A stretch of DNA of 38,178 bases, from the NCBI GenBank assembly GCA_004292515.1, contig RDXB01000096.1:1-38178 (forward strand). Direction: 5' to 3'. Origin of the DNA: Oscillatoriales cyanobacterium. Its GTDB lineage: Bacteria > Cyanobacteriota > Cyanobacteriia > CACIAM-69d. Below the pieces are notes generated by a model. That model made no database searches, was not told where the DNA came from, and was given only the letters and a program-made list of their open reading frames with translations. Below, piece after piece: positions 10,104 through 36,650 of the stretch; position 1 is the stretch's first letter; each line of letters opens with the position of its first letter. Position numbers and translations under genes: made by a program.

Positions 10104-10123
10104 CAGTTGGTGGGTTGGATGCT

Positions 10124-12559
10124 ATGGATGGGTTGGGGGCAAAAGCACAACTACAGCGGGGTTTAGCCGCCCTTAAGCAAGGACGGGCCACGGAGGCAAT
10201 CGCCCTGCTGAAGGCGGCCGGGGCGGGGTTGGAAGGAGCCGATCGCGCTCGGGCTTTGGCGGGGTTGGTGGGGGCCTATCGGGCGGCGGGTCAGTGGACT
10301 GAGGCGATCGCCCTGTGCGATCGACTGCTACAGCATCCCAGCCTCCAGGTGCGCCAGTGGGCGACCCAAGCGCGATCGCAACTACCGGCCCAGCCCCCTG
10401 CGGCCGATCGCCCTGTGGCCCAACCCGACGAACCACCACCCAGTCCACCCAATTCCAGCGGATTTGCGGCGGGATTTGTGCCCCTGAGCGCGCCGATCGC
10501 CGCTGGACAACGGACGCAGGTGGTGTGGGTGGCCATGGAGTCGCCCGTGCTCCCGAGCGATCGCCCAGCCGCGACCGACGCTGGCCAGCCGATTGCCCCA
10601 CCGCCATCTGCCCCCAAAGCCGTCGTTTCGACCGTTGCACCCGTTACAGCTCAGGAGCCGATCGCCCCGCCTGGTCGTGATTCCAGTGTGCTGGAACCCT
10701 ACGAGGTGCAGTGGCGCAATGCCCCAAAAGCCGATCGCCCCACTGCCCTACCCCAGGTGGCGGCTTGGACGCACCATTTACCCCAGGTGATCGCCTTAAT
10801 CTTGCTGGTGGTGCTCATTCAGCAGGCGGCGATCGTTGGCATCAGCAGCTACAACCGGCTGATGGATTGGTGCATGAATGCCCTGTTATGGCTGCCGATT
10901 TGGGGCGATACACCGCCCAGCATTGACGGCAACCCCACTTGGCCTGTGGTGATTGGGCTAGGGCTGGTATTTGCTGGCTCGCCTTGGTTGCTAGATGAGG
11001 TGTTGCGGCGCTGGGGCAGCCAACCGCGCAAGTTTTCGGAGCTGGCGGCGGAGCGACCCGAAACCGCCCGCAAACTGCAACGAATGGCCCGATCGCACCA
11101 ACAGCCTGTACCCCACTTGCACCTGCTGACTACCGCTGTCCCCCTGGTGATGGTTTATGGCTGGTGGCCATCGCAAATGCGGCTGGCCATTAGCCAAGGG
11201 GCGCTGGAAAGTTTGACCGATGGGGAGTTGGCCAGTTTGGCGGCGGCCCAATATAGCCAAGCCCCCAGTGGTGATGCGGCGATCGCCAGTTGGGCCACGG
11301 CGGCCTTGATGTTGCCCTATGGCCTCTACATTCTGAGCGCCCAGTCTGCGGAAACTTGGCAACTGTTACCCGCCAAAATTGGCGCGATCGGCTGTTCGGC
11401 CCTCAGCTATGGCATCTATCGATTGGAGCGCTGGGCCTTGCTGGGCTGGAGTCGATCGCGCCAACTCACCGCCGATCGCCAAGGAGCCGCCCAATCAGGT
11501 GATCCCAACGCCCTCGCCCGCGCCTTGGTCAAGTGCAGCGCAGGCCTAGCCGCACAGTTCCACCGCGATCGGGCGATCGGCCTCTGGCTAGAACTCTGGG
11601 AATTTCTGTTGCCGATCGCCCCCCGCACCGCAATCACCGAAGGCAGCTTCCAGCCGATCGCCCCCCTCGAACCGCTCTGGGTTTGGGGTCGCCGCCACCC
11701 TTACCGCCAGTGGTTGCAGCTCAACCAATCCCACCCACCCACGGGCCAGCGGATGGCCCAGTTGGCGGAATTAGCCGTGCGCTGGAAACTAGAGCCGGAA
11801 TTTGAAATGAGCGATCGCGCCGCCCAAGACCAGCAGCAACGCTACCTGCCGCCCCTAATGGCCGCCCGCCTCAGCCGTCCGCTCAAGGCCGCCAGCCTGT
11901 GGATGCAATCCGCCCCTTGGGTCGGTGGGTTCCTGGGACTTGGCTTGGCGATCGCCCTCTGGACTATTGGCGGCATCGGCTTGCTGTTCAAACACCCGAT
12001 CGGTTGGATGTGGGGCGATCGCACCCTGATTGGGGGCTTGGCTTGGATGGGCTGTGGGCTGGGTATTTTCCTGCGAATTAACCGTTTCTTCCCCGAAATT
12101 CGATCGGGCCGGGCGGTGAACTTCACGGCCGACGGGCCGCCCCTGGCCAGCGCCCTCACGGAACCGAACGCCCTACCGATCGATGGGGTGATGGTCAAGG
12201 TGTCGGGGGTGTTGTTGGGCCGCAGCGGTTGGGCCAACGGCCTCTGGCAAGATCTGTGGCTGCAAACCCCAAGCGGCACAGTGCCACTGCACCTGGCCAG
12301 TCGCGGCGGCTGGCTGGGTTGCTTGGTGCGCCAAAGTCGGGAGGAATTACCGATCGGGCGATCGGTGGTGGTCACGGGTTGGTTGCGTCGCAGCAGCACC
12401 CCTTGGATCGATGTGGAAGCCCTGAACCTGCTGCAAGGCAAGCTAACTAGCACCACCAGCCTCGTGACGGCCGATGCTCACCCCCTGCGATCGGTGGCGA
12501 TCGGGGCGATCGCCGTGGTCGTTGGGTTCAGCATTCTGATGCGCTTCGGGTGGTTTTAG
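10124..12559 (+). CDS. TPR-like membrane protein with a degenerate M48 peptidase-like domain
   Basis: An 811-residue protein starting at ATG 10124 (a TTG three codons earlier is possible). Residues 1-90 form TPR-like helices (GLAALKQGRATEAIALL, AYRAAGQWTEAIALCDRLL). A Pro/Ala-rich linker follows to about 215. About seven hydrophobic segments are visible, at roughly 220-245, 270-295, 390-410, 425-440, 595-625, 635-650 and the C-terminus. Between them lies an M48-like domain: a stretch ending LAISQGALESLTDGELAS aligns with the region before HExxH, but the motif itself reads LAAAQYS. The later ADRQGAAQSGDPNALARAL aligns with the M48 third-ligand region, but the ligand Glu is missing. All three zinc ligands are absent, so proteolysis is unlikely. 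A C-terminal OB-like beta domain (GVLLGRSGW to SVVVTGWLRR) precedes the last helix. Role unknown. The stop codon coincides with the left end of a Rep-B-like repeat. Confidence 0.85.
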   Translation: MDGLGAKAQLQRGLAALKQGRATEAIALLKAAGAGLEGADRARALAGLVGAYRAAGQWTEAIALCDRLLQHPSLQVRQWATQARSQLPAQPPAADRPVAQPDEPPPSPPNSSGFAAGFVPLSAPIAAGQRTQVVWVAMESPVLPSDRPAATDAGQPIAPPPSAPKAVVSTVAPVTAQEPIAPPGRDSSVLEPYEVQWRNAPKADRPTALPQVAAWTHHLPQVIALILLVVLIQQAAIVGISSYNRLMDWCMNALLWLPIWGDTPPSIDGNPTWPVVIGLGLVFAGSPWLLDEVLRRWGSQPRKFSELAAERPETARKLQRMARSHQQPVPHLHLLTTAVPLVMVYGWWPSQMRLAISQGALESLTDGELASLAAAQYSQAPSGDAAIASWATAALMLPYGLYILSAQSAETWQLLPAKIGAIGCSALSYGIYRLERWALLGWSRSRQLTADRQGAAQSGDPNALARALVKCSAGLAAQFHRDRAIGLWLELWEFLLPIAPRTAITEGSFQPIAPLEPLWVWGRRHPYRQWLQLNQSHPPTGQRMAQLAELAVRWKLEPEFEMSDRAAQDQQQRYLPPLMAARLSRPLKAASLWMQSAPWVGGFLGLGLAIALWTIGGIGLLFKHPIGWMWGDRTLIGGLAWMGCGLGIFLRINRFFPEIRSGRAVNFTADGPPLASALTEPNALPIDGVMVKVSGVLLGRSGWANGLWQDLWLQTPSGTVPLHLASRGGWLGCLVRQSREELPIGRSVVVTGWLRRSSTPWIDVEALNLLQGKLTSTTSLVTADAHPLRSVAIGAIAVVVGFSILMRFGWF

Positions 12560-12760
12560 GGTGCGCTATTTTGTAACCGGCAATCCTGACCCCTGAGTCC
12601 ACCCTTACCTGAGCCGTGGGGCAGCAAGGGGCTTAGGGGCTGTCATCAAATCCCTGAAACCCTGATTCCACCGTGACGCGATCGTGAGGCAGCAAGGGGC
12701 TTAAGCCCCTTGTTGGCATCTGATGACACGCCCTAAGCCCCTTGTTACAACCATTGGGGC
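12557..12760. mobile_element. Rep-B repeat with a second Rep-B inserted in its palindrome
   Basis: The outer copy runs from TAGGG at the stop codon of the preceding gene to about CAACCATTGGGG. Its palindrome arm GGGGCT (to 12633) is interrupted at the centre by an inner copy at 12636-12733, flanked by TA on both sides, after which the other arm AGCCCCTTG resumes. The inner ends are GGGGCTGTCATCA and TGATGACACGCCC, inverted with 11 of 13 matches. The inner copy keeps its own AAGGGGCTTAAGCCCCTT palindrome (12694-12711). The hairpins may terminate transcription from both convergent genes. Confidence 0.75.
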
Positions 12761-12779
12761 CGGGCCATGACGATACTGC

Positions 12780-14888
12780 CTAATACCGATCGAGGGAACT
12801 GATTGAGCCTTCGCTGGGGTGCTGGGCCAGGTCTTCAAAGCCTACAAACCGCTGTTGGTTGAGCTGTTGCAGGTAACGGCGCTCTTGGTAATACAAATCG
12901 TGGAAGGTTTGCTGTTGTTCGTAGGCGCGGTTCAGGTTTTCTTCGAGGCGCTCAAGGTCGATCGGGTCGGGAGCCAGGGCCAAGTTGCCATCTACGCCAC
13001 CACCACCACCGCCACCGCGCAGGCTGACCACATTGCTTGATTGGTGCTTGCTGCCGGAACCGATCGGGGCTTCACCGGCAAACAAGCGCCGCAACTCCTC
13101 GGCGGCCACCTCCGCTTGCAGGTAATGAGTCAGCCAAGCATCGAGCAGGTGGCGGCAGCGCTTGGCACATTGCAAACTTTCCAGACTGGCGATCGCCGCG
13201 CGAATGGTCAGACCGGGGCGATCGAGATCCAGCTCAGTGCGCTCATCTAGATGCAACAGCCGATCGACGATCGCCAAATCCTCGTGGGATAGCTCCGGGT
13301 TCGATCGCAGCTCGATCGCCAACTCCGCCGCCTCGTAGCCCAAGGTCTCCTGCAGCTGCAAAATTTGTCGCCACAGGAATCGATGGTGCGACAGGCCAAA
13401 CTCCAGCTCCCGTTCTTCCAAGATCGCCAAAATTTGCTGGCGGCGATCGGGTCGGTGCAAATAGATTCGCAACAGTTGCCCCTCGGCCGCTTCCCGCAAG
13501 CTGCTGTCGCCCGATCGCTGCCATTTGGCCGATCGCCCATGCCAGCGCTGGCCCTGCACCTGCGATCGCAAATCCTGCTCCAGTTGCAGGGTGAAGTAGC
13601 TGTCCTTTTGGCCCAGCAGGTCGGCGCAGTGGCGGATGTAGTGGCTGCGGGTGGCGGGGTTGGGAATTTGGCTGAGGAACTGCACCGCGTCGCCCACGGC
13701 CGCCTGGAACTGATCCGACAGGCGCAAATCCCGCGAGCCGATCGCCCGATCGAGTTGCCAATCGAGCCACAGGGGCGCATCGGCAATCAGGGTGCGGTAA
13801 TGGTCGGCGCTGTAGGCCTTGAGGAACTCATCGGCATCCTTGCCCCCGGGCAGATTCAACACGCGCAGTTGAATTTCGCCCCGGTAGGCCAGCCCTTCCA
13901 CTTCCCCGATCGCCCGCTCCGTGGCTTTTTGGCCCGCCGCATCCGCATCGAAGTTCAAAATAATTTGCTTCGATTCGGTAAAGCGGGTCAGCAGCTTCAC
14001 CTGCGCCAAGCTCAAGGCCGTGCCTAGGGCGGCCACCGCGTTGGTGATGCCCACCGCATGCAGCGCAATCACATCGAAATAGCCTTCAACGACGATCGCC
14101 GCGTCGGTTTTGGCGATCGGCGTTTTGGCCTGATCCAGCCCAAACAGCGTCCGCCCCTTGTCGAACAGCTCCGTTTCTGGCGAGTTCAGATATTTCGGTT
14201 CATCGCCATTCAGCGTCCGGCCACCAAAGCCGATCGTCCGCCCCTGGGGATCGCGAATCGGCACCATCAGGCGATCGCGGAAGCGATCGTAATAGCCGCC
14301 CCCGGATTTGCGCGGCACAATCAAGCCCGCCTTTTCCACCAGCCCCACGGGATAGCGTTTTTGATCGACCAAATAGCGAAACAGCGCATCCCACCCGGCT
14401 GGCGAGTAGCCCAAGCTAAAGCTCTGGATTGTTTCCTGGCTCAGTTGCCGCTCTTCGAGCAAGTAGTCCATGGCCCGCACCCCCACGGGCTGGGTCAAGG
14501 CATGAGCATAGAAGCTGGCCGCCACGGCCATCACTTCATAGAGCTGTTCGCGTTCGGTGATTTGGCGCTGAATTTCTTCCCGGCGCTCTGGCTCCAGGGT
14601 TTGCACGGGCACTTGGTAGCGCCGCGCCAAGTCCAACACCACGTCGCTAAACGATCGCTTATCCAGCTCCATCAAAAACTTGATGGCGTTGCCCCCAGCC
14701 CCACAGGAGAAGCAGTAATAGAACCCCTTGGCGGCGCTGACGGTGAAGCTGGGGGATTTGTCGTCGTGGAAGGGGCAAAGCCCTTTGAAGTCCTTGCCGT
14801 TTTTTTTCAGCACGACCCGTTCCGAAACCACATCCACGATGTCGGCTCGTTGTTTGACGGTTTCTACGGTGTCGGGGTGCAGGCGCAC
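12780..14888 (-). CDS. dnaG: DNA primase DnaG
   Basis: Synthesises RNA primers for lagging-strand replication. The 702-residue protein has an N-terminal CHC2 zinc-binding domain with C38, H41, C59 and C62 (GLCPFHDDKSPSF, YYCFSCGAGG). The RNA polymerase core includes the conserved YLLEERQLS and FGGRTLNGDEPKYLNSPET segments. The TOPRIM domain shows IVVEGYFDVIALH and the acidic NFDADAAGQKA motif. The C-terminal DnaB-interaction region is helical. A run of seven glycines (coded at 12996-13016) sits in the linker before the last helices and looks like a trinucleotide expansion. The length is slightly above the usual ~600-650 because of this linker and the tail. Start ATG 14888 fits the family. Confidence 0.97.
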   Translation of the reverse strand: MRLHPDTVETVKQRADIVDVVSERVVLKKNGKDFKGLCPFHDDKSPSFTVSAAKGFYYCFSCGAGGNAIKFLMELDKRSFSDVVLDLARRYQVPVQTLEPERREEIQRQITEREQLYEVMAVAASFYAHALTQPVGVRAMDYLLEERQLSQETIQSFSLGYSPAGWDALFRYLVDQKRYPVGLVEKAGLIVPRKSGGGYYDRFRDRLMVPIRDPQGRTIGFGGRTLNGDEPKYLNSPETELFDKGRTLFGLDQAKTPIAKTDAAIVVEGYFDVIALHAVGITNAVAALGTALSLAQVKLLTRFTESKQIILNFDADAAGQKATERAIGEVEGLAYRGEIQLRVLNLPGGKDADEFLKAYSADHYRTLIADAPLWLDWQLDRAIGSRDLRLSDQFQAAVGDAVQFLSQIPNPATRSHYIRHCADLLGQKDSYFTLQLEQDLRSQVQGQRWHGRSAKWQRSGDSSLREAAEGQLLRIYLHRPDRRQQILAILEERELEFGLSHHRFLWRQILQLQETLGYEAAELAIELRSNPELSHEDLAIVDRLLHLDERTELDLDRPGLTIRAAIASLESLQCAKRCRHLLDAWLTHYLQAEVAAEELRRLFAGEAPIGSGSKHQSSNVVSLRGGGGGGGVDGNLALAPDPIDLERLEENLNRAYEQQQTFHDLYYQERRYLQQLNQQRFVGFEDLAQHPSEGSISSLDRY

Positions 14889-20370: not shown

Positions 20371-20713
20371 GTTGCTCCTTGCTGACTGACGGCAATTGAT
20401 GGATGAGCCTTGGAGGATGCTTAAAAAGCCACAATCGATACGCAGCTCGCCCGAATGATCGACGAAGACAAGGGGCTTAAGCCCCTTGTTCTTCACGACT
20501 ATGGGTGCTTGGTAAGTGCTTCAAGATACTTTTCAGACATCCTCTCAGATGGGCCTTGCGGGAATACCAGCTCAATTATTCCTCAATCATTCAATTAGGT
20601 TAGGCCAGTTTTTCCAAGCGGAAACTGACGCAAGCTCCTAAAATAGCCAACGTCTGCGGCCACGATCGCCCATCGACTACGATCAAAGCTTGCCTACCCT
20701 TCTTGTCCGTCCC
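20371..20713. other. Divergent mnmE-clpB intergenic region with a Rep-A copy
   Basis: No gene. The Rep-A copy at 20413-20548 sits between two divergently transcribed genes, 43 bp from the mnmE start, so the promoters lie beside or inside it. No CIRCE heat-shock operator was seen upstream of clpB. Confidence 0.6.
20413..20548. mobile_element. Rep-A repeat in the mnmE-clpB divergent promoter region
   Basis: The left end GAGGATGCTTAAAAAGCC and the right end ACTTTTCAGACATCCTCTC are inverted. A perfect palindrome AAGGGGCTTAAGCCCCTT lies at 20470-20487. A good reference copy for the family. Confidence 0.82.
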
Positions 20714-26170: not shown

Positions 26171-26350
26171 TCGACATAGACAAGGAGCTTAGGGCGTGTC
26201 ATCAGATGCCATTGATGGCAGATGAAACAGTGATGTTCCGTGCCCCAGTCGTCGTAACAAGGGGCTTAAGCCCCTGACAGCCCCTAAGCCCCTTGCCCCC
26301 ACGACTATTAGTGCTTGCCCGTGCCAAAAGATATTTTTTAGACAGCCTCT
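26150..26350. mobile_element. Rep-A repeat interrupted at its palindrome by Rep-B
   Basis: Rep-A sequence (TACGCCCCAATGATCGACAT from 26159) leads into the palindrome arm AAGGAGCTTA, where Rep-B (26192-26284; ends GGGCGTGTCATCAG and CTGACAGCCCC) is inserted with TA on both sides. The other arm AAGCCCCTTG and the Rep-A right end (TTTTTTAGACAGCCTCT) follow. The Rep-A left terminus is lost into the end of the upstream gene. Confidence 0.75.
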
Positions 26351-28856: not shown

Positions 28857-29027
28857 GCCGCCCCATAGGAATTGAGTCGGTCAGTTAGTCGGTCAGTTAA
28901 CTCAGTTACAGGCTTTATCTCTACAGGCTTTACCTCAAACGATTGGTACATCCGATCACCGATGCTATGAAGCGGTTAGTCGGTGGGCATTGCCCACCCT
29001 ACAGACTACGGGCTGTACTGTACTCAG
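28857..29027. terminator. Convergent intergenic region with hairpin
   Basis: A 12-bp tandem duplication GTCGGTCAGTTA lies at 28876-28899. The hairpin-forming GGTGGGCATTGCCCACC (28983-28999), inside a wider AGTC/GACT inverted repeat, sits between two convergent genes and probably ends transcription in both directions. Confidence 0.5.
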
Positions 29028-31520
29028 CTAATTCAGCCGATCCATACGGGCTATGGCGGCCGGGTCGAGGGAGGGCGAATTGACAGCAAAGGTCGCTGAC
29101 GTTAAGCCCGATTCATGGAAGCAAGGCAAATCAACAGTGAAGCAACTTCCTTCGTTGATGCTACTGGTGAGACTCACTCGCCCGCCATGTAACTCCACAA
29201 TTCGCTTCACCAATGCCAGGCCTAGCCCCGTGCCTTCATAGCGGCGGTTGAGGGAACTCTCGACTTGGCTAAAGGGCTGAAAAATCCGATCAAAATCCGC
29301 TTCCGCAATGCCAATCCCCGTATCAGTCACTGAAAACCGCAACCAGGGATCGGGGCGATCGAGCTGCTCAACCGCCAGCACCACATGACCCGATTCTGGG
29401 GTAAATTTCACCGCATTGATCAGTAAATTAATCAACACTTGTCGCATACGGCGTTTATCCACCACAACCGCAGGCAACGTGGGCGGGACATAAACTTCTA
29501 AATCAATGTACTTATTAAGGGCTTGGTGTCGCACAAACCCAGCACTCGATTGGCAAAGGACATTCGCAGAAACAGGCTGAAAATCGAGATCGACCTTACC
29601 TTCCTCAAGCTTCACAAAGTCTAAGATATCCGTGATCAACTCCAGCAAATGATCGCCACTTGCTTCAATGCTTTTGAGGGCTTTGATTTGCTCAAGATTA
29701 ACCGGCCCCAAAATTCCTTCACGTAGACATTCCGTAAAGCCCAGAACAGCATTGAGGGGCGTGCGTAATTCATGACTCATAATCGTCAAGAAATTACTTT
29801 TGGCTTGGTTGGCCTTCTCTGCCAATTGAGCAGACTCAAGAGCGAGCTTTCGACTTTGAAATAACTCATAGGTTCGCTGTTGCACTAACAAATTCACCAC
29901 AACTGAGTTGCGGGCTTGGGAAATGGAGAACCCACCAATCAGACCCGTAATCAAAAAACCAGCCCACAACACAAAGGCAGATTCCTGGGTGCGGAGGGGT
30001 TGAAAATAGCGATCGCCTCCCGAAAACCGAACGATCCAGACTCGATCGCCAAAGTCAATGGTTGTTTCCGCTTGGGTCATCACTTGCCCTGGATTGGCTG
30101 TCGTGATTGATTGATCAAGTTGTTCTTGAGTTTGGCTATCTTCTAGGACAAACGTCATGCCCTCAGGAATCAAGTTACTGAAGGATTCTTTGAACAAATC
30201 TCCCACTCGAAACACAGTAGCCACATAACCTTGCAGGCTTTGCTGGCGCTCTGCCAGGGTGCTCGGTTTGGGCGTGGCGTAGAGGGGTAAATATAGAATA
30301 ACGCCCTTTTGTGCTGCTGTTCCCTGGGCAAGCTCAATGGGTGGTGTGGCGGTCATCCGACCCGAATTTTGAGCCTCAATTAAGGTTTTGAGACGACGGG
30401 ATTCTGACCCCAAGTTAAAGCCGAGCGCTTTGAAATTTTTGGCTAAAGGCTCGATGTAAAAAACAGGATAATAGAGATCACGATCATCATCAGGTACAAG
30501 TAACTTTTGTGCGTTTTGCTTTTGAAATTGAAAGTTGGGAAAGCCCTCCTGACGGGCTAATTGCTCATATTGCTGGCGAGTCGATCGGGTCACTAAGGGA
30601 GTCCAACTCACGGACTGAATGCCTTGGACACTTTCTAGATAGGGTTGAGCAAATTTCTGAAATTGTTCACGATTAACACCGATCGCACCTGCTGGAAAGC
30701 TACCCGAGTCAAAGAGGCTCTTGAGACCAAAAAGCACATGGGTAGCATGGTCAAGATTGTCCTGAAGACGCTGCGTAATAATATGAACATCGCTTTGAAA
30801 CACTGCTTCGATGCGCTGTTGCTCGCGATTTTGGGACTCTTCGAAAATCAGAATCGTGGAAACTAATGCCAACAAAACTGGCAAAATGTAAGACAAGAAA
30901 TGTCGCTCTTGGGCAGTTTCTTTTTGGAGGATGAGGGGAATGCGCCGTTGCTTGAGCAAGTAAATGGTGCCGATCGGTAAGATGGCAACCACTCCCAGGG
31001 AATCCCCAATCCACCAATTCCACCAAGACTCAATGAAACCCGCAGGACTCAGGGAACCGCTGATTAACAGGGCACTGTTACCGATCGTTGCTCCCACCAA
31101 ACAACTGGCGGGCCCCGCCAAAATCAGAAAAGCCAGAATGCCGGGAACTTCTGCAAGCCAAATGGGGCGCTTAAACAGTTTGGCAAGTAGCCAATTACCA
31201 AAGGCTGCTTGGGTGACTGCCCCCAGCGCGATCGTGACCGCTACAAGTACATTCACCGGGGTCAATTCGCCGCTTGCCTTTAGGCCGATCGCCATGTTTA
31301 AACAACAGGACCCGAACCAAATCCCGGGATAGGCTTTTCTGCCCCAACACAACACACCCAGCAATGCCAAACCGGCAGCCGGCCAAACCGGCGATGCATA
31401 GCCTGGGGGCAGTGCTAAATATCCCGATAGCAAGCCGATGCCACCATAGGCGATCGCCACGCCTAGGCTCGGCAACCCGCCAGCCACAACATATCGTTTG
31501 ATTCTTGAGAAGACTGCCAT
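29028..31520 (-). CDS. MASE1-CHASE sensor histidine kinase
   Basis: An 830-residue membrane sensor kinase. The N-terminal ~300 residues form a MASE1 domain of about eight membrane segments (PPGYASPVWPAAGLALLG; later SWWNWWIGDSLGVVAILPIG). A periplasmic CHASE-type ligand-binding domain follows (from about 235, IEAVFQSDVHIITQRLQDNL, through SVSWTPLVTR and YYPVFYIEP), then a further membrane helix (about 510-535). The HisKA domain shows SHELRTPLNAVLGF with phospho-acceptor H583. The HATPase has N box NLLINAVKF, G1 DTGIGI and G2 GTGLGLALVKRIV. No receiver domain and no adjacent response regulator, so it is an orphan kinase. Ligand unknown. ATG 31520 begins right before the first hydrophobic segment. 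Confidence 0.93.
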   Translation of the reverse strand: MAVFSRIKRYVVAGGLPSLGVAIAYGGIGLLSGYLALPPGYASPVWPAAGLALLGVLCWGRKAYPGIWFGSCCLNMAIGLKASGELTPVNVLVAVTIALGAVTQAAFGNWLLAKLFKRPIWLAEVPGILAFLILAGPASCLVGATIGNSALLISGSLSPAGFIESWWNWWIGDSLGVVAILPIGTIYLLKQRRIPLILQKETAQERHFLSYILPVLLALVSTILIFEESQNREQQRIEAVFQSDVHIITQRLQDNLDHATHVLFGLKSLFDSGSFPAGAIGVNREQFQKFAQPYLESVQGIQSVSWTPLVTRSTRQQYEQLARQEGFPNFQFQKQNAQKLLVPDDDRDLYYPVFYIEPLAKNFKALGFNLGSESRRLKTLIEAQNSGRMTATPPIELAQGTAAQKGVILYLPLYATPKPSTLAERQQSLQGYVATVFRVGDLFKESFSNLIPEGMTFVLEDSQTQEQLDQSITTANPGQVMTQAETTIDFGDRVWIVRFSGGDRYFQPLRTQESAFVLWAGFLITGLIGGFSISQARNSVVVNLLVQQRTYELFQSRKLALESAQLAEKANQAKSNFLTIMSHELRTPLNAVLGFTECLREGILGPVNLEQIKALKSIEASGDHLLELITDILDFVKLEEGKVDLDFQPVSANVLCQSSAGFVRHQALNKYIDLEVYVPPTLPAVVVDKRRMRQVLINLLINAVKFTPESGHVVLAVEQLDRPDPWLRFSVTDTGIGIAEADFDRIFQPFSQVESSLNRRYEGTGLGLALVKRIVELHGGRVSLTSSINEGSCFTVDLPCFHESGLTSATFAVNSPSLDPAAIARMDRLN

Positions 31521-31590: not shown

Positions 31591-31730
31591 CTGAGAAGAT
31601 GTCTGAAAAGCTGGTATTAGTCCAATCCTTACCCTACCCTAGTCATTGATAGAACCTAGGGGATGCAACCCTTTCTAGGATGATGGGTGCTTGGCTGGTA
31701 TTTGAATCAACTGTTCAGATATCCTCTCAG
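31591..31730. mobile_element. Rep-A repeat, divergent copy
   Basis: The left end CTGAGAAGATGTCTGAAAAG and the right end GTTCAGATATCCTCTCAG are inverted. The interior is highly divergent: the palindrome is replaced by CCTAGGGGATGCAACCCTTT. Confidence 0.7.
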
Positions 31731-31871
31731 AAAATGTCTGAGAAGCCAAAATAGATACTCGGTATGCCCTAGCGATCGACGGAAATAATGGGCTTAAGTC
31801 CCTTGTCTTCTGTCTTCACGACTATTGGTGCCTGACCCGTGCAACAAGATACTTTTCAGACATCCTCTGAG
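31726..31871. mobile_element. Rep-A repeat sharing its end with the preceding copy
   Basis: It begins CTCAGAAAATGTCTGAGAAG, reusing the last five bases of the neighbouring copy, and ends ACTTTTCAGACATCCTCTGAG. It contains a mutated palindrome (ATGGGCTTAAGTCCCTTG). Confidence 0.75.
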
Positions 31872-34739: not shown

Positions 34740-35066
34740 ACGCTGTCACCTCCTCAGCTGTCACCTCCTCAAGTGTTTAATTGTTGAGGATATTTGAACA
34801 GCCAAAGTTGATACTCTCTATGCTCCATCGATCGAGGCAGGCAAGGGGCTTAAGCCCCTTGCCCCTACGACGATTGGTGCTTGATCTGTGCCAAAAGACA
34901 CTGCTCAACTATCCTCTCAGTCAACCGAAAGAATAGCGATCGCAACCATTGCCGCCTAGAACTCGGGTACTGCCTCGGCGAATTTGCCCGATCGCCGACC
35001 CAAAATCGCCAACCCCTCCCCCGATCGGCCTTACCCTAAAACCAATGTGATGGTGTGGTGTGCCTG
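34740..35066. other. Intergenic region with tandem duplication and Rep-A
   Basis: No gene. CTGTCACCTCCTCAG and a near-identical second copy (34743-34772) precede the Rep-A copy; no clear promoter elements were identified before the aminotransferase gene. Confidence 0.6.
34785..34920. mobile_element. Rep-A repeat
   Basis: The left end TGAGGATATTTGAACAGCC and the right end GCTCAACTATCCTCTCA are inverted. A perfect palindrome AAGGGGCTTAAGCCCCTT lies at 34843-34860. Confidence 0.8.
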
Positions 35067-36209: not shown

Positions 36210-36387
36210 GGGTTGTCGCTATTTCGCCTGAAACCTGATTTCGCCTGAAACCTGAATCTGCCGTGAGCGGATCGTGAGGGGGCGAGTGGCTGAGGGCCTG
36301 TCGTCGTTTCGCCCGAAACCCTGATTCCACCGTGAGCAGATCGTGGGGCAGCAAGGGGCTTAAGCCCCTTGTCTGAGACGGTTGGGG
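36207..36387. mobile_element. Two Rep-B-like repeats in tandem
   Basis: The first starts at the stop codon (TAGGGGTTGTCGC) and contains a duplicated TTTCGCCTGAAACCTGA. The second starts near 36293 (AGGGCCTGTCGTCG), continues ACCCTGATTCCACCGTGAGC, and has the palindrome AAGGGGCTTAAGCCCCTT at 36353-36370, ending near GACGGTTGGGG. Confidence 0.7.
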
Positions 36388-36650
36388 TATGAACGATTAG
36401 ATGGTTCAGCGTCATGCCAGGAAATGACGACGGGCCCTCAGTCAAGGGTGGATGGGACGCAACAATTCCCACCATGACGATCGCGGCTGTACCCCGTGCC
36501 GAATCAGGGCGGGAAATGGCGATCGCCCCTTTCGGCAATTACCACCACTGCCTACCCGCCCTCGATCGGTCAAGCTATGCTTTACTATCGACAAGCATCC
36601 CGACTTCGGCCCCGTTGCAATCCACCCCTTTGCAATTCCCTTTGCAGTCA
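36388..36650. other. Upstream region of the PRC-barrel gene
   Basis: The PRC-barrel frame remains open through here but the translated sequence has no domain character; most likely a promoter and leader region. Confidence 0.5.

Follow-up and report, generated by a model that had tools for sequence, protein, structure and literature searches.

Nested copies of the Rep-B repeat at the centre of a repeated palindrome in an Oscillatoriales cyanobacterium

A Rep-B element divided by a second Rep-B

The window analysed here is a stretch of 38,178 nt (contig RDXB01000096.1, positions 1 to 38,178) from the draft genome of an Oscillatoriales cyanobacterium, a repeat-rich assembly of 3.98 Mb in 111 contigs. 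Two convergent genes, an ORF at 10115-12559 and dnaG, flank a Rep-B element that is divided at the centre of its palindrome by another Rep-B. The dnaG gene shows 91% identity to that of Limnothrix sp. CACIAM 69d, and the organism is therefore Limnothrix-like. The features of the locus at 12557-12782 are as follows.

12557 to 12558: TA that flanks the outer Rep-B on the left (target duplication); the same two bases open the TAG stop codon of the ORF at 10115-12559
12559 to 12633, plus strand: left arm of the older, outer Rep-B, whose last bases (12626-12633) are the half palindrome AAGGGGCT; alignment to the Rep-B left arm 78%
12634 to 12635: TA to the left of the inner Rep-B, one copy of the target duplicated on its insertion
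12636 to 12733, plus strand: inner (younger) Rep-B, 98 bp, with ends GGGGCTGTCATCA and TGATGACACGCCC
12694 to 12711: intact central palindrome AAGGGGCTTAAGCCCCTT of the inner Rep-B
12734 to 12735: TA to the right of the inner Rep-B, the other copy of the duplicated target
12736 to 12780, plus strand: right arm of the outer Rep-B, starting with the half palindrome AGCCCCTT (12736-12743) and internally shortened; alignment to the Rep-B right arm 82%
12781 to 12782: TA that flanks the outer Rep-B on the right (target duplication); these bases belong to the TAG stop codon of dnaG (12780-14888, minus strand)

The palindrome of the outer element is split in the order AAGGGGCT, TA, the insert at 12636-12733, TA and AGCCCCTT. 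When the two flanking halves are joined through one TA they form a perfect 18-bp palindrome, AAGGGGCTTAAGCCCCTT, and the outer Rep-B restored without its insert is 122 bp long. A first, sequence-only reading of this DNA had placed one Rep-B in the exact centre of the palindrome of another, with TA on both sides, and the exact restoration of the palindrome from 12626-12743 bears this out. The outer limit given in that reading, 12760, stopped 20 bases short of the right end of the outer Rep-B; the whole element occupies 12559-12780, with TA at both borders. The description of the insert as a complete 98-bp Rep-B was right in that both ends are present, but the copy is not full length (~143 bp), 45 bp of the right arm being gone.

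The inner copy is identical at 98/98 aligned bases to an intact 143-bp Rep-B at C70:92323 (L065), from which it is separated by this single 45-bp deletion; the loss could have come before or after its insertion. The outer arms are diverged from the young L065 sequence, with identities of 78% and 82%. We read the locus, from its sequence, as an older Rep-B that took a young Rep-B into its hairpin tip. No orthologous empty site was found in relatives; in both congeners the two flanking genes are not adjacent but sit on separate contigs. In Limnothrix sp. CACIAM 69d, Rep-A but no Rep-B was found after dnaG.

Rep-B and the repeats that share its palindrome

Full-length Rep-B is a non-coding element of 142-143 bp, with ends GGGNNTGTC(A/G)TCA and TA on either side. 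Its shortness, lack of coding capacity, terminal inverted repeats, target duplication and high copy number are those of a MITE, as is the possession of ends in common with an autonomous element: the ends of Rep-B match those of an insertion sequence (IS) in the genome G004, described below, although this partner was not found in the genome studied here. An Rfam search of the window gave no match.

Repeats were counted in a sample consisting of the window and 40 further stretches, none longer than 20 kb, 838 kb in total. The stretches were blocks from large contigs together with some contigs picked for Rep-B matches, so that densities are possibly somewhat high; the comparisons of occupied with empty sites are internal to this sample. 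Rep-B gave 164 non-overlapping matches in the 838 kb, whole or partial. The palindrome AAGGGGCTTAAGCCCCTT occurs seven times in the window with up to three mismatches, and a chance origin is excluded because none is expected in 100 shuffles of the window. Genome-wide (3.98 Mb, up to two mismatches) there are 413 copies, and the reversed-pattern control gave 0. Two further families, Rep-A and Rep-C, have other ends and the same central palindrome. The window holds the following additional examples.

26182 to 26294, minus strand: second nested case; inner Rep-B at 26192-26284, one arm shortened, with TA at 26190-26191 and 26285-26286, in a split Rep-A palindrome
34786 to 34915, plus strand: Rep-A with an unoccupied palindrome at 34843-34860
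36294 to 36436, plus strand: non-nested full-length Rep-B with an intact palindrome at 36353-36370

Rep-A is also found in the window at 20413-20543 and 31595-31866, and Rep-C at L045 13589-13735. The ends of Rep-A and Rep-C are unrelated; the central palindrome is common to them, and some similarity reaches past it.

Nested Rep-B copies were found in Rep-B hosts (L065, L026, L056, L074 and the window at 12559-12780), in Rep-A hosts (the window at 26182-26294, L058, and L045 at 8850) and in Rep-C hosts (L035 and L237). Neither Rep-A nor Rep-C was found as an insert in the 838-kb sample. Since Rep-A and Rep-C also serve as hosts, the target is the palindrome, the element's own included, rather than 'self', and since the hosts belong to the different families A, B and C, the insertions are independent. 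Nested copies are not invariably short of an arm, as was first supposed: those at L065, L026, L032, L042 and L074 are full length.

Distribution and a candidate partner element

The sequence-only reading had proposed a genome-wide search for palindromes interrupted by Rep-B ends. One-sided junctions (up to one mismatch) numbered 129 in G000, the genome studied here, 60 in its congener G001 and 14 in its congener G002, with 0 in the reversed controls. Five more were found in G004, from the same family and another genus; the remaining 55 genomes of the 59-genome set had none. A slightly shorter junction pattern gave any match in 7 of 390 cyanobacterial genomes. Junction-like matches in G084 and G336, outside the family, were set aside as not resembling split copies of this palindrome. 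The palindrome itself is present in 18 of the 59 genomes. Four genomes of other cyanobacterial families (G013, G022, G054 and G039) carry 8 to 38 exact copies of AAGGGGCTTAAGCCCCTT per genome and no Rep-B junctions; the palindrome is therefore older or wider spread than Rep-B.

In G004, the centre of the palindrome is occupied by an 862-bp IS, in the arrangement CAAGGGGCT-TA-IS-TA-AGCCCCTTG (L165:1501-2384). This element has a TA duplication and two overlapping ORFs on the minus strand (L165:1949-2320 and 1522-1974), which match the IS5 transposase model NF033580 at 139.9 and 135.4 bits (cut-off 110), and also PF13340 (DUF4096) and PF01609 (DDE_Tnp_1). It thus combines the DDE transposase, overlapping ORF pair, length of 0.83-0.87 kb and 2-bp duplication that characterize the IS427 group of the IS5 family. 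The ends of the IS are slightly unlike each other, GGGGGTGTCGTCATTT corresponding to the right end of Rep-B and GGGGCTGTCGTCAAAA to the left end. The transposase gene occurs once in the G004 genome, an assembly of about 10 contigs. This IS5-family element is probably the autonomous partner type of Rep-B, and we infer from the matching ends that an IS of this type moved Rep-B.

No close relative of the G004 transposase was found in G000 or its two congeners. The IS5 model gave one weak, interrupted match in G000 (C98), with ends unlike those of Rep-B, and better matches in G001 and G002; the active mobilizing enzyme may have been lost from the genome studied here. IS5 relatives in G009, G018 and G034 lie at ordinary TA sites. 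An IS630-type source was also considered: there are three PF13358 matches at two loci, and no Rep-B-like end pairs surround these loci in the stretches examined. This candidate was not taken up, the matching ends being found on the IS5 element instead.

Origin of the nested copies

Nested inserts might have spread by gene conversion or template switching through the half palindromes, rather than by fresh transposition. Hundreds of copies carry identical half palindromes, and the same right-arm fragment is present in three different hosts (L235, L236 and L237). However, the Rep-A and Rep-C hosts share little beyond the palindrome with Rep-B, and full-length inserts begin and stop exactly at the TA and the element ends. 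The IS of G004 occupies the same site, and its single-copy transposase gene leaves no other copy as a donor. We consider this route unlikely.

It is very improbable that the apparent nesting is a tandem duplication, or slippage, of one arm with no insertion at all. One-arm arrays do exist (five left arms and one right arm at L044, and the one-arm forms at L235-L237), but at 12559-12780 inner and outer arms are only 78-82% alike, whereas the inner copy agrees with another locus at 98/98 bases. In many cases, moreover, two full inner arms lie between two outer arms that come from another family or run in the opposite orientation (L026, L056, L058 and L035). Insertion is preferred to tandem duplication because only insertion predicts the order observed, a young element within an old one.

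Preference for the central TA of the palindrome

The 838 kb contain 106 Rep-B ends with a TA at the border, and 40 of these lie directly against the half palindrome CAAGGGGCT. Thirty distinct complete, TA-bounded Rep-B copies could be classified by their surroundings: 12 have palindrome halves on both sides, eight on one side and ten on neither. The 12 copies in palindromes compare with an expectation of 0.17 when all TAs are considered (69-fold, P = 1e-19), and of 0.52 when only intergenic TAs are considered (23-fold, P = 5e-14). The comparison of palindrome centres with other TAs, likewise suggested by the sequence-only reading, gave a clear result within the A, B and C repeats themselves, where 12 central TAs are occupied and 83 are empty, against 0 of 681 non-central TAs with a complete insertion (Fisher P = 6e-12).

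An excess of this kind could arise by survivorship if Rep-B inserted at any TA and the insertions in palindromes were kept as harmless. The palindromes are mostly intergenic (107 of ~120), and non-nested copies often lie at stop codons. Yet insertions at the non-central TAs of the same repeats should be equally harmless, and their lack of complete insertions, set against 12/95 for central TAs, favours a choice of target over mere persistence in DNA where insertions do no damage; the excess also remains 23-fold against intergenic TAs. We therefore give survivorship very little credence. Short-read misjoining of pieces from different repeats is scarcely conceivable as the source of the pattern, for although this is a draft genome with repeats at contig ends (L232, L241 and L244), the 98-bp insert is short, the outer arms are unique and diverged, and the same structure appears in three other assemblies, G004 among them.

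The suggestion that Rep-B targets a TA within its own hairpin tip is upheld by the 23- to 69-fold excess at the palindrome centre, but was drawn too narrowly: the palindromes of Rep-A and Rep-C are also entered, and 10 of the 30 complete copies lie at other TAs, outside palindromes. Every one of the 11 Rep-B copies with 98% or more identity to the young sequence has a palindrome junction, some of them being cut by contig ends with one side visible. In a few places (L067, L075, L036 and L044) a Rep-B insertion and another element lie end to end. At L075 897-1327, two end-to-end Rep-B copies, about two bases apart, are situated between the halves of an apparent single Rep-A.

We consider it highly probable that Rep-B is a MITE of an IS5-family (IS427-like) IS, with a strong preference for the TA at the palindrome centre (the TTAA tip), hence the nesting. 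A transposase supplied in trans would bind the two terminal inverted repeats of Rep-B, insert the element at a TA and duplicate that TA. The preferred site would be the central TA of AAGGGGCTTAAGCCCCTT, the hairpin tip in the middle of Rep-B, Rep-A and Rep-C. Each insertion there would destroy one target and bring in a new, identical one, and because of this fresh target Rep-B copies could nest repeatedly.

In single-strand folds of both Rep-B and Rep-A, a stem of 9-11 bp is capped by a loop that contains the TTAA. We speculate that the transposase recognizes the extruded hairpin tip, with its TTAA loop, as a structure, and that Rep-B carries a portable, structure-defined landing site, a possibility to which we give rather less than even weight; unrelated TA-centred dyads in the sample (9, vs 78 of the family) are too few to separate shape from sequence. 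If the idea is correct, each insertion would lengthen the hairpin and set a fresh tip inside it, creating a self-renewing safe haven in which the family multiplies without hitting genes.

Relation to known systems

Several IS strike REP palindromes, including ISPsy8, ISRm22, ISPpu9/10 and ISPa11 (Tobes and Pareja 2006, PMC1525189). Like Rep-B, they strike a fixed point of a repeated palindrome, and ISPsy8 and ISRm22 do so exactly at the symmetry axis (PMC1525189). These elements are autonomous and lie in foreign REPs, whereas Rep-B is non-autonomous, renews the target that it carries and nests. In the type 1 cases every copy lies at the same palindrome position, 100% of them in REPs (PMC1525189); Rep-B as a whole does not show this exclusivity, which is confined to its youngest subfamily (11/11).

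The IS427 group (IS5 family, Paracoccus) is described in the portion of PMC3281130 available to us as elements of ~830-865 bp with two overlapping ORFs and a 2-bp duplication. The G004 IS (862 bp, TA, NF033580) agrees with it in size, ORF pair and duplication length, and that portion makes no mention of palindrome-centre targeting. The palindrome of QMITE2 of Coxiella is hit by IS1111 (reviewed in PMC10969869); a MITE palindrome is the landing site in both cases, but the invader there is an unrelated IS, and here it is the Rep-B family. GTAG-15 REP dimers lie inside long palindromes of Anabaena variabilis, according to the available part of PMC3733652. They too are small repeats within palindromes in a cyanobacterium, but are REPs and not TA-bounded inverted-repeat elements; the same part, which gives mobilization by a RAYT tyrosine transposase and the GTAG tag as marks of the REP/REPIN class, contains no description of self-nesting. 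The accessible text of the Limnothrix genome paper (PMC6256058) does not mention the present repeats.

Our search of the open-access literature, with subscription papers outside its range, found no description of a MITE nesting in its own palindrome. Targeting of palindrome axes by IS is already known; what is new, as far as the open literature is concerned, is a MITE nesting in the very target it carries. Rep-B would represent a non-autonomous element whose spread also multiplies its target, and nature supplies dozens of independent events that can be read. Such a system lets one ask how transposases find palindrome tips, and whether mobile elements spare the host by landing in their own copies. 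It is also informative on the origin of small tandem arrays, because nesting supplies direct repeats.

Arm arrays and stop codons

The nested halves form direct repeats ~68 bp apart (a 21-bp repeat with a spacing of 68). One Rep-B arm is missing at L235-L237, and L044 8900-9462 (G000:C88, about 28900-29462) carries five left arms of Rep-B in tandem, with a repeat unit of 68-69 bp, and then one right arm. Both forms would be accounted for if single arms were lost or gained between half palindromes, and because nesting leaves direct repeats, it may drive the one-arm losses and the one-arm arrays alike.

Both convergent genes end in a TAG stop codon that includes a TA duplication of the outer Rep-B (12557-12559 and 12780-12782). 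The 838 kb hold 83 non-nested Rep-B-like termini, of which 19 give an in-frame TAG to an ORF of 100 codons or more, compared with 6.6% of all TAGs (binomial P = 1.5e-6).
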